From: Planctomycetaceae bacterium
GTDB lineage: Bacteria > Planctomycetota > Phycisphaerae > Phycisphaerales > SM1A02
Length of the DNA: 64,000 nt
Reading direction: 5' to 3'
Assembly (NCBI GenBank): GCA_947490615.1
Contig: CANLHK010000001.1
Span: 248,001 to 312,000 of the forward strand
Positions 34,314 through 57,510 of this stretch are shown piece after piece. Numbering within the stretch: the first letter of the stretch is position 1; every line of letters begins with the position of its first letter. A model generated the notes under the pieces. It was given only the letters and a program-made list of their open reading frames with translations. It did not search any database and was not told where the DNA came from. The position numbers and the translations under genes were made by a program.

Positions 34314-35842
34314 GAAGCTGCTCCATCACCATGCACATCGTCATCGGGATCGGTGCCGTGCGCGTCGCCGTGCGTCATGCGCGAACGCAACATGAGCAGT
34401 TCTTTGAGAACAGGCTTGGCGTGCGCCCGCCGATCGAGCAAACCATCGCTCGCGGTAGCAGTGTCCTGAAGGCGCGACCACCACGCTCCTTCGATCCACT
34501 TGCGCGCCATCGAGCTCTTGAGCATTTCGCCGCCCCACCGCGCCTGCGACTCAGGGGTCCACGCGCCATGCCAACAACCGCCATCGCCGCCGTCACCCGA
34601 ACTGGGCACTCCAAAGCCTGAGACAAACACGGGAAGCTCGCAACCGAGGTATCCATCGAGCAAATCGGTGATCGTGAGAAACTCGCGCGCAGGATCTTGG
34701 CCGAGCGCTTCGACGACGCGGACTCCGACCGCGAAGAACCCCAAGTTCTCACCGACGATTCGTTGCAAGAACGAAGTGGGCCACGCCGCACCATGCGCGC
34801 CGCACCAATGCTCCGCGCCTGGAGACTGGATCTCAAGAATCGCTTTGGCATCGCGTCGCGCGTCACGCACCGCCGCAGTCGCGGTGCGCACGAGTTCGAT
34901 CATGCGCTCAATGCCGTCGCCGCGCCAAGTCGGAAGATTCGCGCCACTGGCTGTGATGAAGAACGGCGAGATCGCCTTGTATCGATCGGCCACGGCGCGC
35001 GCCTGATTCCAGATCAGTTCGCGAAACCGCTTGGCGTCGATGTGCGTGGCCAAGACATGATCAGGAATGGCGCACTTGCCGCCGTGATCGGAGGGACCGA
35101 AGTCGATGAGCGGACCGAAGATCACCCGCTTCTTCTCAGAGTGCGCCCACTGCACCCACGCGTCAATCTCTGAGAAATCCAGTTTGCCTGCGCGTTTCTC
35201 GATGCGACGCCACGGCGTGCGCAGCGCGATGACACCGAAACACTTGGCGGCGTCTGCGGCGGCGCCTGTGGGCGCAATCGCAGGATCGACGCACAAACCA
35301 AAGGCATCGCCGTTGATCCCTTTGCGCGCCATGCGACGCACGAGCAAGAAGTGCGAGTGCCGTTCGGCAAGCCGCTCGGCGGCAGCGACACCCAACGCGA
35401 TGGCCTTGCGTGCGAGCCGTTCGGCCTCGGGACCATCCATGCAGCGGAGCGCCACACGAAACGCTTCGCGCGCTCCGTCCCATTGGTTGAGCGCTTCGCC
35501 ACTCAGCGCGGGGTTCCACATCTGCCAGGATTCCGACTGCAAAATAAACTGCTTGATCAGCCAGCGCGCGATCTCGATAAAGAGGTCAAACGGTTCCTCT
35601 TGAGATGGGAGGAAGCAGGTTTGCAGCACGATCCGACCCGCGCTGCCTGCGTCGACAAGCAACGCGAGACCAACAGGATGCTCGCGATCGCTGCGGCAGA
35701 CGATGAGTCCTCCATCGTGCACCACGGTGCCGAGCGTGGGTCGACCATCCGGACCAACGAGGTACGCGCTGCGCAGCGCCCACGATCCGTTGGATCCCGT
35801 TCCGTCAGGTCCTTTGGGGTCATGTACGCGGAATCGAAGCAA
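34310..35842 (-). CDS. GH10-like TIM-barrel protein, probably non-catalytic
   Basis: 510 aa cytosolic-looking protein without signal peptide. An N-terminal beta domain (~1-120) precedes a barrel-like region with GH10 xylanase flavour: TPWRRIEKRAGKLDFSEIDA, VIFGPLIDFGPSDHG, AVADRYKAISPFFITASGAN, ILEIQSPGAEHW and PVFVSGFGVPS. In GH10 enzymes the acid/base glutamate follows Asn in the WDVVNE-like strand and the nucleophile lies in xTELDV; here the strands read FFITASGAN and FVSGFGVPS with no Glu at either place. I infer a degenerate, possibly structural or binding protein. TTG start at 35842 with GAGGAA just upstream. First gene of the operon with the HhH protein and mfd. Confidence 0.6.
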   Translation of the reverse strand: MLRFRVHDPKGPDGTGSNGSWALRSAYLVGPDGRPTLGTVVHDGGLIVCRSDREHPVGLALLVDAGSAGRIVLQTCFLPSQEEPFDLFIEIARWLIKQFILQSESWQMWNPALSGEALNQWDGAREAFRVALRCMDGPEAERLARKAIALGVAAAERLAERHSHFLLVRRMARKGINGDAFGLCVDPAIAPTGAAADAAKCFGVIALRTPWRRIEKRAGKLDFSEIDAWVQWAHSEKKRVIFGPLIDFGPSDHGGKCAIPDHVLATHIDAKRFRELIWNQARAVADRYKAISPFFITASGANLPTWRGDGIERMIELVRTATAAVRDARRDAKAILEIQSPGAEHWCGAHGAAWPTSFLQRIVGENLGFFAVGVRVVEALGQDPAREFLTITDLLDGYLGCELPVFVSGFGVPSSGDGGDGGCWHGAWTPESQARWGGEMLKSSMARKWIEGAWWSRLQDTATASDGLLDRRAHAKPVLKELLMLRSRMTHGDAHGTDPDDDVHGDGAAS

Positions 35843-35976
35843 TGTTCCTCACTGCATCCATGCAGGACTCGTCAGAGTGCATGCGGAGTTCTTGCAAGAC
35901 TGTTGCGGAGTGCTGCGCCAAGCTGCGATTCCGCGCGGAGCGCCAATTGGGGTGGCGGAGTGTACTCTGTCGCACG

Positions 35977-36963
35977 ATGGTTTCCTCGCTCCACTCCCTT
36001 TCCGCGCCGAGTGTGTTGCGCACCACCCTGAGCCTTCCCGATCGACGCGAAGGCAAGGTGCGCGATGTCTACCGCACCAGCGATTCGCCCAGCGCGCCGC
36101 TCCTCATCGTGGCCACCGATCGCCTCAGCGCCTTCGATGTGGTGATGCCCACCGCCATCCCGGGCAAGGGTCGTCTCCTCACCGCGATGAGCCTTGGTTG
36201 GTTTGGTTTTCTGCGCACACGCGGGATCATCGGCGACCATGTCCTCAGCACCGATCTCAGCGAAGTCGAGGGGCTTGGGGATGCCGAACTGAGGATGCTC
36301 GCGGGGCGCTCCATGCTCTGCCGTGCTGCGCGGGTCGTTCCCATTGAGTGCGTGGCGCGCGGCTACCTCGCGGGAAGCGGCTGGAGCGAGTACCGCCAAA
36401 GCGGAACCGTCTGCGGAATTCCTCTTCCGAGCGGCCTTGAGCAATGCAGCCGACTGCCACAACCGATCTTTACCCCCGCGACCAAGGCCGCCGAGGGTCA
36501 CGATGAGAATGTCTCGTTTGAACAGGCTGCGAAGCAGGTCGGCGCGGGCCTGATGTCGCGTTTGCGTGACCTCACCTTGGCGATCTACAGCGCCGCAGCG
36601 CAGTACGCGTTGGAACGCGGAGTCATTCTCGCCGACACGAAGTTCGAGTTCGGTTTTGCGCTGGGCGCCGACGGAAAGCCAACCGACGAGCTCATCCTCG
36701 TCGATGAAGTGCTGACGCCTGATTCGTCGCGGTATTGGCCAGCATCGGAGTACGCGCCAGGCCGCGATCAAGCGAGCTATGACAAGCAGTTTGTCCGAAA
36801 CCATCTCCTGCAACTCGTCGCCGACGGACGATGGAACAAGGAGCCGCCTGGCCCGCCACTTCCTGAAGAAGTCGTGGCCGCGACGCTGCTCCGTTACGAA
36901 GAGGCGCTCGCGAAACTCGCGCTCCCCGCCTTCAACGCGGTGCCCTGCGGAGAGAGCCGATGA
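35977..36963 (+). CDS. purC: Phosphoribosylaminoimidazole-succinocarboxamide synthase
   Basis: 328 aa SAICAR synthetase joining aspartate to CAIR in purine synthesis. Signatures: LPDRREGKVRDVYR, VATDRLSAFDVVMPTAIPGKG, PIECVARGYLAGSGWSEY, FTPATKAAEGHDENVSFE and ILVDEVLTPDSSRYWPAS. The protein is the longer yeast/Pseudomonas-like form (~300 aa) rather than the short E. coli one. ATG 35977 is followed by the conserved region. The stop overlaps folD by 4 bp, coupling purine synthesis to C1-folate supply. Confidence 0.96.
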   Translation: MVSSLHSLSAPSVLRTTLSLPDRREGKVRDVYRTSDSPSAPLLIVATDRLSAFDVVMPTAIPGKGRLLTAMSLGWFGFLRTRGIIGDHVLSTDLSEVEGLGDAELRMLAGRSMLCRAARVVPIECVARGYLAGSGWSEYRQSGTVCGIPLPSGLEQCSRLPQPIFTPATKAAEGHDENVSFEQAAKQVGAGLMSRLRDLTLAIYSAAAQYALERGVILADTKFEFGFALGADGKPTDELILVDEVLTPDSSRYWPASEYAPGRDQASYDKQFVRNHLLQLVADGRWNKEPPGPPLPEEVVAATLLRYEEALAKLALPAFNAVPCGESR

Positions 36964-56101: not shown

Positions 56102-56153
56102 CCTGTCAGCCATGTGGCAGACAGGTCCAACGACCTGGACAGGAGGTCCTCAG
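56102..56153 (+). promoter_or_regulatory. csrA leader with CsrA-type GGA hairpins
   Basis: Leader of csrA. CCTGTC/GACAGG with inner GCC/GGC forms one hairpin, CAGGTC/GACCTG another, and GGAC (56137-56140) pairs with GTCC (56146-56149) leaving AGGAG in the loop. That loop is the Shine-Dalgarno sequence of csrA and holds a GGA, the CsrA-binding core. CsrA occupying it would block its own translation, as in E. coli. Confidence 0.7.
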
Positions 56154-56387
56154 ATGCTGGTGATCACTCGACGCGAAGCTGAAGAAGTTGTCATCGGAAA
56201 CCCTGCGTCTCCGATCGGAGTCGTTCGCATCGTCGCCATCAAGGGCGACCGAGTGCGGATCGCTTTCGAGTTCCCACGCTCTGTCGAAGTCCATCGTCGC
56301 GAAGTCGCCGATGAGATCCTCGCCAACGCCAGCCCCGAAGAGCGCCCCGTCATCGGGCAGATTCGACCTGCGACCGAAGGCGGCTGA
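56154..56387 (+). CDS. csrA: Carbon storage regulator CsrA
   Basis: 77 aa RNA-binding dimer that represses or activates translation by gripping GGA in hairpin loops near ribosome-binding sites. MLVITRREAEEVVIGNPASP, IGVVRIVAIKGDRVRIAFEF and VEVHRREVADEI match the five-strand CsrA fold; the RNA-contacting Leu-Thr-Arg near the N-terminus (here VITRR) and R in VHRREV are present. The C-terminal helix extends normally. AGGAGG lies 8 nt upstream of the ATG. Convergent with mraZ. Confidence 0.96.
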   Translation: MLVITRREAEEVVIGNPASPIGVVRIVAIKGDRVRIAFEFPRSVEVHRREVADEILANASPEERPVIGQIRPATEGG

Positions 56388-56834
56388 GCCTCGATCGAGG
56401 TTCGCAGCCCAAGATCGAACAACCGAATGAACAACAGCGCGCGCCGCAGACCTGTCTGCGGCGCGCGCTGTTGAGTTTCCGCGTGTGTCCCACCACTGCG
56501 CGGAGCGATGTTGAAAGCGGCTCCGGCCCTTTCGGGTCGGAGCCGCGAATCCTGATGGACCGCGTTCCGTGCGGTCCCCAGTGACTGCCTGGCCGTCCTT
56601 GGCCAAGCGGAGCGATGCGAGGGTCCTGCACGCACCCGTGAGTGCAGGATTTCTGCAGGAATCCGACCGTTGCCTCAACGATCGTGCCTTGGAATCGTGC
56701 CTCGGCGCATCCTTGCGCCTCAGTGATCCCGCAGCGGTTTCCCGACTCCCTCGCTCCTAGGGCGTGACGATCCGTGTCTCGCGTCTAGGTGTTCGTTCCA
56801 ATCGCAACGACTCCCTTTCGGGATCCATCGCGCT
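56388..56834 (-). ncRNA. Candidate CsrB-like CsrA-titrating RNA / structured mraZ 3' region
   Basis: 447 bp between convergent csrA and mraZ without a protein gene. On the minus strand hairpins follow one another: 56748-56762 (loop AGGAGCG), 56704-56719 (GGCGCA-AGGA-TGCGCC), 56624-56649, 56590-56605 (loop AAGGAC), 56557-56577 (loop ACGGAAC), 56517-56546 (loop GAAA) and 56433-56472 (18-bp stem, loop CAGG). I counted 18 GGA on this strand in 56477-56834 against 8 on the other. Multiple GGA-loop hairpins are the hallmark of CsrB/C/RsmY/Z. No promoter of its own was found, so it may be a 3' UTR-derived RNA from mraZ. Confidence 0.5.
56433..56472. terminator. Long perfect hairpin between csrA and mraZ
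   Basis: 18-bp uninterrupted stem beginning AACAGCGCGCGCC with a 4-nt loop. Neither side is followed by a real T tract (TTGAGTTT on plus, TTGTTCATT on minus), so it may act as a weak bidirectional terminator or protect RNA 3' ends. Confidence 0.55.
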
Positions 56835-57254
56835 TCATGCTGTTCGTTTGTTCGCGAGCGTCTTCTGGCGCTCCACTTCACGCTCCGAGGTCGACGCGAG
56901 CTCGAGATGGTCGCGCACTCCAAGGATCACCACTTGGCCACTCAACCCAAAGTCACTCAAGAGCCGATCAGGGATGCGCACCCGACCTGCACTGTCAAAG
57001 GGGATTCGTGCGGATCGGGGAAACAAGTCCCTGTTGAATCGCACGACTTCTTCTTGGGTGACCAGACCGCTCTCGATCCGATCAGCTTGCTCTTCAAACT
57101 TCTTCTCTGGCCAGAGCCAAAGCGCACCGTTCTGTCCAGGGGCGGCGATGAATGCCTCGCCGTGTCGGTCCTTCTTCCAGGCGTCGCGAATCTCTGACGG
57201 GATCGCCAGTCGCTGCTTCGCGTCGAGAGAATGGTCGTACTCGCCGAGAAACAT
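56835..57254 (-). CDS. mraZ: Transcriptional regulator MraZ
   Basis: 139 aa. Two SpoVT/AbrB-like halves: FLGEYDHSLDAKQRLAIPSE at the N-terminus and PFDSAGRVRIPDRLLSDFGL in the second half, with LWLWPEKKFEEQADRI between them. MraZ forms rings that bind direct repeats upstream of its own gene and represses division/cell-wall genes. Normally first in the dcw cluster before rsmH and ftsL; here it stands alone with a gene-free structured region downstream. Start 57254 is the first ATG before the fold. Confidence 0.95.
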   Translation of the reverse strand: MFLGEYDHSLDAKQRLAIPSEIRDAWKKDRHGEAFIAAPGQNGALWLWPEKKFEEQADRIESGLVTQEEVVRFNRDLFPRSARIPFDSAGRVRIPDRLLSDFGLSGQVVILGVRDHLELASTSEREVERQKTLANKRTA

Positions 57255-57303
57255 GTCTGACGCTCCGAGTCCCGCATCCGTTGGGCGGCTGCAGGTAATT
57301 GGG

Positions 57304-57332
57304 ACAATACCACACCTTGCCCCACCTTTCAA
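57304..57332 (-). promoter_or_regulatory. mraZ promoter
   Basis: On the minus strand TTGAAA (57327-57332) and TATTGT (57304-57309) are separated by exactly 17 nt, giving a 5' UTR of roughly 40-45 nt to the mraZ ATG. Confidence 0.75.
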
Positions 57333-57347
57333 CACCTCCACCCACAT
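57313..57347 (-). promoter_or_regulatory. MraZ-type direct-repeat operator
   Basis: Minus-strand boxes AGGTG start every 10 nt at 57317, 57327 and 57337, with a related ATGTG at 57347. They overlap the -35 and spacer of the mraZ promoter. Ten-nt-spaced G-rich repeats are the known binding signal of MraZ, so this fits autoregulation. Confidence 0.75.
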
Positions 57348-57510
57348 GTCCCCCTTTTTCCTTGAGAAAATTTTTGGCAATCGCAGGGGGCGGAGTGGCG
57401 CGGTCTCGCAAGCAGCCCATATTTCGAGGGTTCCGACGAGTACGAATCAGCGCACGGTGTTTGGCCCTGGCCCGTCGGCCCGCGTGATCGCACGCGATAG
57501 CAGTCTGTTG

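Follow-up and report, generated by a model that had tools for sequence, protein, structure and literature searches.

A conserved structured RNA downstream of mraZ in planctomycetes, with CsrA-type hairpin loops, is a candidate CsrA-titrating RNA

CsrA is present in many phyla. RNA antagonists of this protein have been described for gammaproteobacteria (PMC7652899), and the closest comparisons for the present locus are CsrB and CsrC of E. coli and RsmX, RsmY and RsmZ of Pseudomonas. The published CsrA site reads RUACARGGAUGU in SELEX and is also given as an ANGGAN hexaloop (PMC7652899). The BarA-UvrY system is described as characteristic of gammaproteobacteria and as anti-correlated with FliW, a protein that several groups, Planctomycetes among them, may use and that is presented together with the sRNAs as an alternative solution (PMC4682653). 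In line with this, sRNA mimicry and FliW are named as the mutually exclusive mechanisms described to date (PMC7366521). A further relative in terms of gene context is UpsM of Rhodobacter sphaeroides, which, like the RNA proposed here, is an sRNA from the mraZ/dcw transcription unit; it resides, however, in the 5' leader upstream of mraZ, its cleavage is Hfq-dependent and probably target-dependent, and the abstract of that study describes no role as a CsrA sponge (PMC5089854). An RNA antagonist of CsrA from planctomycetes, or one linked to mraZ, did not appear among the matches listed in a search of mostly open full-text literature.

The stretch of planctomycete DNA analysed here, which we call the window, is 64,000 nt long, and we propose, with a probability of about 0.8, that it encodes a non-coding RNA of ~320 nt downstream of mraZ that sequesters CsrA through four hairpins with ANGGA loops and probably belongs to the mraZ unit. 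The design resembles that of CsrB/CsrC and RsmX/RsmY/RsmZ in its serial ANGGA-loop hairpins, its terminal hairpin and its lack of coding capacity, and, as in the CsrB/RsmZ systems, the presumed partner is a CsrA with the key RNA-binding arginines. Unlike CsrB and RsmX/Y/Z, the RNA occurs in a planctomycete host, is tied to mraZ, is not known to be linked to BarA-UvrY and contains a domain closed over a long range; furthermore, CsrB has 22 GGA motifs (PMC7652899), compared to four conserved sites here. Features of the CsrA-titrating class, namely GGA loops of the CsrA consensus, a conserved non-coding structure and a CsrA with conserved arginines, are present. The Rfam models of CsrB, CsrC and RsmX/Y/Z gave no gathering-level hit in the window and no hit up to an E-value of 5 at the locus, and the CsrB-like models gave none up to an E-value of 1 in 18 related loci. 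It is most likely, by analogy of design, that the RNA would work like CsrB or RsmZ without detectable homology, and not as a member of those families. A known Rfam RNA was also considered and dismissed, the best match below the gathering score (sX6, E 0.027) falling in the palindrome of the csrA trailer and not being CsrB-like. The features of the locus are collected in Table 1.

Table 1. Positions of the RNA, its parts and the neighbouring genes, numbered from the first letter of the window.
Feature	Position	Strand	Support or remark
Structured non-coding RNA, proposed CsrA-titrating	56511-56834	-	16/16 genus genomes; 91-pair consensus, 44 with double-sided changes
5' hairpin, 2 nt past the mraZ stop codon	56803-56832	-	helix 1; GNRA in 13/16
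Predicted CsrA site 1, loop ACGGAUC (56769-56775)	56761-56783	-	GGA in loop 16/16
Predicted CsrA site 2, GCGCA-AGGA-UGCGC (loop 56710-56713)	56705-56718	-	GGA in loop 16/16
Predicted CsrA site 3, loop AAGGAC (56595-56600)	56587-56608	-	GGA in loop 16/16
Predicted CsrA site 4, loop ACGGAAC (56564-56570)	56553-56580	-	GGA in loop 15/16
Hairpin CGUUG-AGG-CAACG, without GGA	56664-56684	-	helix 9; loop GAGGC 15/16
Hairpin with CGGGU loop	56624-56649	-	helix 10; conserved
Domain closed by long-range helix (GCGAGGG with CCC..UCGC)	56612-56754	-	helices 5 and 6
3' G+C-rich hairpin (56517-56546), then UUU	56514-56546	-	helix 14; 98.4% of cells paired; probable intrinsic terminator
Near-perfect palindrome, 42 nt	56432-56473	none	self-match to opposite strand, 95% identity
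mraZ	56835-57254	-	Pfam MraZ 2.2e-17
mraZ promoter TTGAAA-17-TATTGT, overlapping GTG direct repeats (MraZ-box-like)	57304-57332	-	promoter scan
csrA1, convergent neighbour, proposed partner	56154-56387	+	Pfam CsrA 4.8e-14
csrA leader, two overlapping hairpin options	56132-56149	+	GGA in each loop at Shine-Dalgarno

An earlier sequence-only reading had placed a possible CsrB-like RNA in the interval 56388-56834, convergent to csrA and downstream of mraZ, and the gene calls on both sides, with the mraZ stop codon at 56835-56837, agree with that position. Its GGA counts, 18 for the minus and 8 for the plus strand, are exact; dinucleotide shuffles contain 11.9 +/- 2.6 and reach at least 18 in 15 of 1000 cases, and the same number is reached in 0.12% of the 2544 strand-windows of 447 nt in the 64-kb window. 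Taken by itself, the number of GGA is of modest weight as evidence; the strength of the case lies in the loops and their conservation. Among the four loops that had been named, AGGA, AAGGAC and ACGGAAC are real and conserved, but AGGAGCG is supported neither by the fold nor by the consensus: a local 4-bp hairpin is possible there, no loop forms in the minimum-energy fold, and in the consensus GCGAGGG pairs at long range instead. A better fourth loop, ACGGAUC, had been missed and is kept in 16 of 16 genomes. The description of the strand as gene-free holds insofar as no frame on either strand spans the RNA in the window, but mechanical ORFs cross parts of it; among the relatives, some frame on the RNA strand is open throughout in 8 of 16 rows, and none is open in all rows. 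Finally, the interval divides into the conserved RNA and a csrA trailer (56388-56510) containing the palindrome, which lies between the RNA end and csrA and is probably a terminator for both directions.

By DNA similarity, the region matches all 16 genus genomes and none of the 45 other relatives. In 15 of the genus genomes it is flanked by mraZ and csrA; in the sixteenth (G006) the contig stops before csrA. The aligned RNA has a mean pairwise identity of 0.70 over 16 rows, and its consensus structure comprises 14 helices in which 93.7% of cells are paired. Double-sided changes were found in 44 pairs, compared to 23.3 +/- 2.7 in shuffled alignments, which reached this number in 0 of 500 cases, and when the structure was slid by 1-3 columns just 33-42% of cells remained paired. 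The covariation extends to individual elements, with double changes in 6 of 10 pairs of helix 1, in 8 of 10 pairs of the site 4 hairpin and in 2 of 7 pairs of helices 5 and 6, whose cells are 92.2 and 95.7% paired. In the four hairpin loops, CANGGA is conserved in 16, 16, 16 and 15 of the 16 genomes, each GGA being preceded by CA and one free base. Two hairpins of the minus strand end in GNRA tetraloops (13/16 and 11/16 rows), and the strong 3' hairpin is followed by a CTTT tail in 16 of 16 genomes; its U run is short, and a stricter scan that demands five T reported no terminator there. It is nearly certain that the minus strand specifies a conserved RNA with CsrA-type loops.

Two further elements are nearly invariant in the 16 genomes, the hairpin CGUUG-AGG-CAACG, which is not a typical CsrA hairpin, and the unpaired segment GAUUGGAACGAA (56793-56804, minus strand), which is not of the CsrA-hairpin type either. 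Their role may lie in tertiary structure or in contact with another partner.

Folding energies say less about the strand. The single-sequence fold leaves it undecided, because both strands fold far better than shuffles (z -8.4 for minus and -7.7 for plus). The consensus energy favours minus over plus with default scoring (-115.0 versus -84.9), but it is weak evidence, because RIBOSUM scoring hardly separates the two (-196.6 versus -189.6). The strand is settled by the comparative data, that is, by ANGGA hairpins that accumulate on the mraZ strand and are not in excess on the reverse.

These comparative data come from the whole family, where matches to mraZ and csrA were found in 168 and 176 of 181 genomes, respectively. 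From the 48 family loci that were taken, 44 mraZ-csrA intergenic regions of 259-790 nt were obtained, which together with the window make 45 regions from 38 genera, csrA being convergent to mraZ in 34 of them and co-directional in 11; the four loci left out (L066, L073, L077, L091) had mraZ or csrA missing from the stretch or an unexpected order. Hairpins were counted when ANGGA lay in a loop of 4-9 nt on a stem of at least 4, and thus only the A, the GGA and the stem were fixed. The mraZ strand of the 45 regions carries 145 such hairpins, compared to 16.0 +/- 3.7 expected from 100 shuffles with a maximum of 26, while the reverse strand carries 11 against 11.5 expected. At least two hairpins are present in 40 of 45 regions on the forward strand and in 2 of 45 on the reverse, and five regions (L064, L065, L067, L089, L094) have one only. 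A looser count of any GGA in a loop yields 221 versus 105.7 expected (reverse 87 versus 81.6). As the sequences are related, none of these hairpin counts represents independent events.

The positions left free by the test are informative as well. At -3, C occurs in 132 of the 145 hairpins compared to 196 of 607 in shuffled ones, T or C stands at +3 in 122, G stands at +4 in 107, and -1 is free, and the family loop consensus, as read from these hairpins, recovers the published CsrA site with the unselected positions included. Counted apart from the 45 regions, the 15 other genus members have 56 hairpins (5.7 expected; reverse 1). The left-out loci L073, L077 and L091, tested later, have 3, 2 and 4 hairpins behind mraZ; in L073 csrA is ~12 kb away and in L077 it lies beyond the other side of mraZ, and the hairpins still follow mraZ. 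In addition, the 165 family genomes that do not belong to the genus were searched with a covariance model built on the RNA's 3' half (R2). It matched 25 of them weakly, and the match lies just behind mraZ in 16 (8 by fetched loci and 8 by coordinates) and not behind mraZ in the other 9, of which 6 were inspected as loci.

Within the 64 kb of the window, the study locus is the best 400-nt stretch for ANGGA hairpins. A weaker cluster of three lies at 35451-36100 on the minus strand and is possibly a CsrA-regulated mRNA or a product of chance. A second genomic copy of the RNA was considered on account of weak R2 matches elsewhere and dropped as unsupported, the matches inspected in five genomes having no hairpin cluster.

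The rest of the order separates the RNA from csrA. In the other families, none of 24 sampled csrA loci has mraZ within about 1.5 kb, although the same mraZ profile recognises all 26 mraZ loci of those families (27 genomes searched), and just 1 of the 24 csrA loci reaches three ANGGA hairpins within 400 nt. By contrast, the 26 mraZ loci carry 59 hairpins in the 600 nt that follow mraZ, compared to 10.3 expected and 5 on the reverse; 18 loci have at least two and 8 at least three, while 8 have fewer than two, three of these having none. Separate counts were made for two families (28 genomes searched, 3 of them lacking a match to mraZ): family f6 has 37 hairpins in 16 mraZ loci (6.1 expected; reverse 3) and family f5 has 14 in 9 loci (2.9 expected; reverse 4), three f5 genomes (G040, G044, G048) being common to both order counts. 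Since the hairpins follow mraZ where csrA lies elsewhere, the RNA is tied to mraZ, and the idea that it belongs to csrA was abandoned. Outside the order, 50 mraZ loci, which serve as a negative control, have no clear excess (29 hairpins versus 20.0 expected; reverse 14), and a phylum-wide presence behind mraZ was rejected on these numbers.

Conserved GGA-loop pairing in relatives, the check that the sequence-only reading had named for itself, is thus present, with compensating stems in the genus, and the same GGA-hairpin design recurs on the same strand across family and order. The CsrA-titrating interpretation gains support from this, but its linkage has to be amended, the RNA being tied to mraZ and not to csrA, with a promoter that is probably that of mraZ.

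With regard to transcription, the sole promoter-like site in 56380-57500 is the one upstream of mraZ (0.3 expected), its TTGAAAGGTG being retained in 14 of 16 genus members, and the same scan revealed no promoter of the RNA's own. No block of sequence is conserved just ahead of the RNA on the mraZ side, and in the window the first helix begins 2 nt past the stop codon, which favours a product of the mraZ transcript; the RNA probably shares the mraZ transcription unit, judging from this arrangement, and a promoter within mraZ is a possible, less favoured source. GTG recurs about every 10 bp around 57300-57360 on the minus strand and in the same place in 15 relatives, with 59 direct repeats in the 16 genus upstream regions compared to 9.3 expected and 6 on the reverse. 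Beyond the genus the excess is smaller, with 50 versus 14.5 in 43 family loci and 32 versus 9.9 in 26 order loci. These repeats resemble the MraZ site of Mollicutes, which consists of repeats of AAAGTG[T/G] (PMC8475190). As a side observation, the MraZ proteins of four genus members (L008, L009, L011, L016) share only ~47% identity with the MraZ of the window, while the CsrA beside them, in those that have it, reaches 74-75% and the RNA is kept; mraZ may have undergone replacement or an unusual divergence in several genus members.

The proposed partner, CsrA1, has arginine at the residues aligned to R6 and R44 of E. coli CsrA in 62 of 62 family sequences, which suggests that it binds RNA, and isoleucine in 61 of 62 at position 4, where E. 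coli CsrA has leucine. The neighbouring csrA had also been said to carry a matching hairpin in its own leader, and this hairpin exists: in a strict test 46 of 62 leaders have the Shine-Dalgarno GGA inside a hairpin loop, 54 of 62 have some GGA hairpin close to the start, and 59 of 62 have AGGAG close to it. In the window the two options are GACCU-GGACAGG-AGGUC (56132-56148) and GGAC-AGGAG-GUCC (56137-56149), and the leader would be compatible with a possible CsrA autoregulation.

Our preferred reading is that each of the four hairpins would present its ANGGA loop to CsrA, and from the number of loops we propose that about two CsrA dimers would be held per RNA. CsrA-bound mRNAs would thereby be set free, as with CsrB/CsrC and RsmX/Y/Z. 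The RNA very likely binds CsrA, and it would likely act mainly by titration. It would arise as a 3' product of the mraZ unit or via an unrecognised promoter inside mraZ; if it is made from the mraZ transcription unit, its supply would follow mraZ expression.

The same hairpins could, however, be a cis element, in which CsrA sites in the mraZ 3' UTR, or in the csrA leader of the tandem genomes, control only the mRNA that carries them, through its stability, termination or translation. The tight link to mraZ on the same strand, the start of the RNA 2 nt past the stop codon with no promoter between, the 11 of 45 family regions in which csrA follows in the same direction and the GGA hairpin that csrA leaders bear themselves would all fit such an element. 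As 34 of the 45 regions are convergent and csrA is elsewhere in other families, though, the element is not, as a rule, a csrA leader, and a simple 3' UTR would hardly seem to need a terminal hairpin, a domain closed over a long range and at least four sites. An RNA derived from a 3' UTR is, moreover, able to act both ways, and overall we regard control of the carrier mRNA only as unlikely.

Much less probable still is a structured RNA whose main function is another one, such as binding a different protein or catalysis, with the GGA loops being incidental. The conserved parts that are not of the CsrA type, namely the CGUUG-AGG-CAACG hairpin, the CGGGU loop and the single-stranded GAUUGGAACGAA, speak for it, but the loop consensus recovers the CsrA site even at positions that were not selected, the GGA hairpins persist outside the genus where DNA similarity vanishes, and no Rfam family is matched at the gathering score, with only weak unrelated matches below it. 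That the hairpins are chance structures, terminators or repeated palindromes is scarcely credible: the high G+C content of the region and the good folding of both strands would fit this explanation, but the stems have compensatory changes, the enrichment is confined to one strand with the reverse unenriched, and beyond the order the stretch behind mraZ shows no clear excess.

If the RNA does titrate CsrA, FliW becomes relevant, since it too has been proposed to relieve CsrA in planctomycetes (PMC4682653), although as a protein and not an RNA. Of 61 relatives, 58 have FliW, and 102 of 121 genomes of the order have two or more csrA matches. Both positions are listed for 12 genomes, and in 11 of these FliW sits within 0.6 kb of the second csrA; the exception (G054) carries three matches to csrA. 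The FliW-less relatives (G016, G020, G032) have a single csrA match each, which suggests that csrA2 and fliW were lost together, and RNA hairpins are kept in the G016 region and in regions of fellow members of the genera of G020 and G032 (L085, L081, L084). The pairing rule is not strict, as G023, G027 and G035 have FliW yet one csrA match at the cut-off used. A dependence of the RNA on csrA1 was weighed as well, and family f5 does not fit cleanly: a distant match is all that its 9 genomes have for csrA, with the hairpins still behind mraZ, and the partner there would therefore have to be the other CsrA. Because G023, G027, G035 and f5 break strict pairing, the idea that two CsrA paralogues divide the work between them is something that we infer, and not a result. 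A circuit spanning the order, in which MraZ would set the supply of the sponge via the GTG repeats while FliW antagonises the neighbouring csrA2 and the RNA antagonises csrA1, is conceivable and would couple the regulator of the division cluster to post-transcriptional control; we put it forward tentatively, as somewhat less probable than its opposite.

The significance of the RNA lies in its host. If the titrating reading is true, a control trick of gammaproteobacteria would also exist in a very distant phylum, and RNA sponges would have arisen in, or would reach back to, a very distant lineage. An RNA sponge and FliW would then coexist, perhaps on different CsrA paralogues, and the circuit with two antagonists, if true, would break the exclusivity of sRNA and FliW as described. 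In addition, the link to mraZ offers a testable tie of cell-division gene control to the Csr system.
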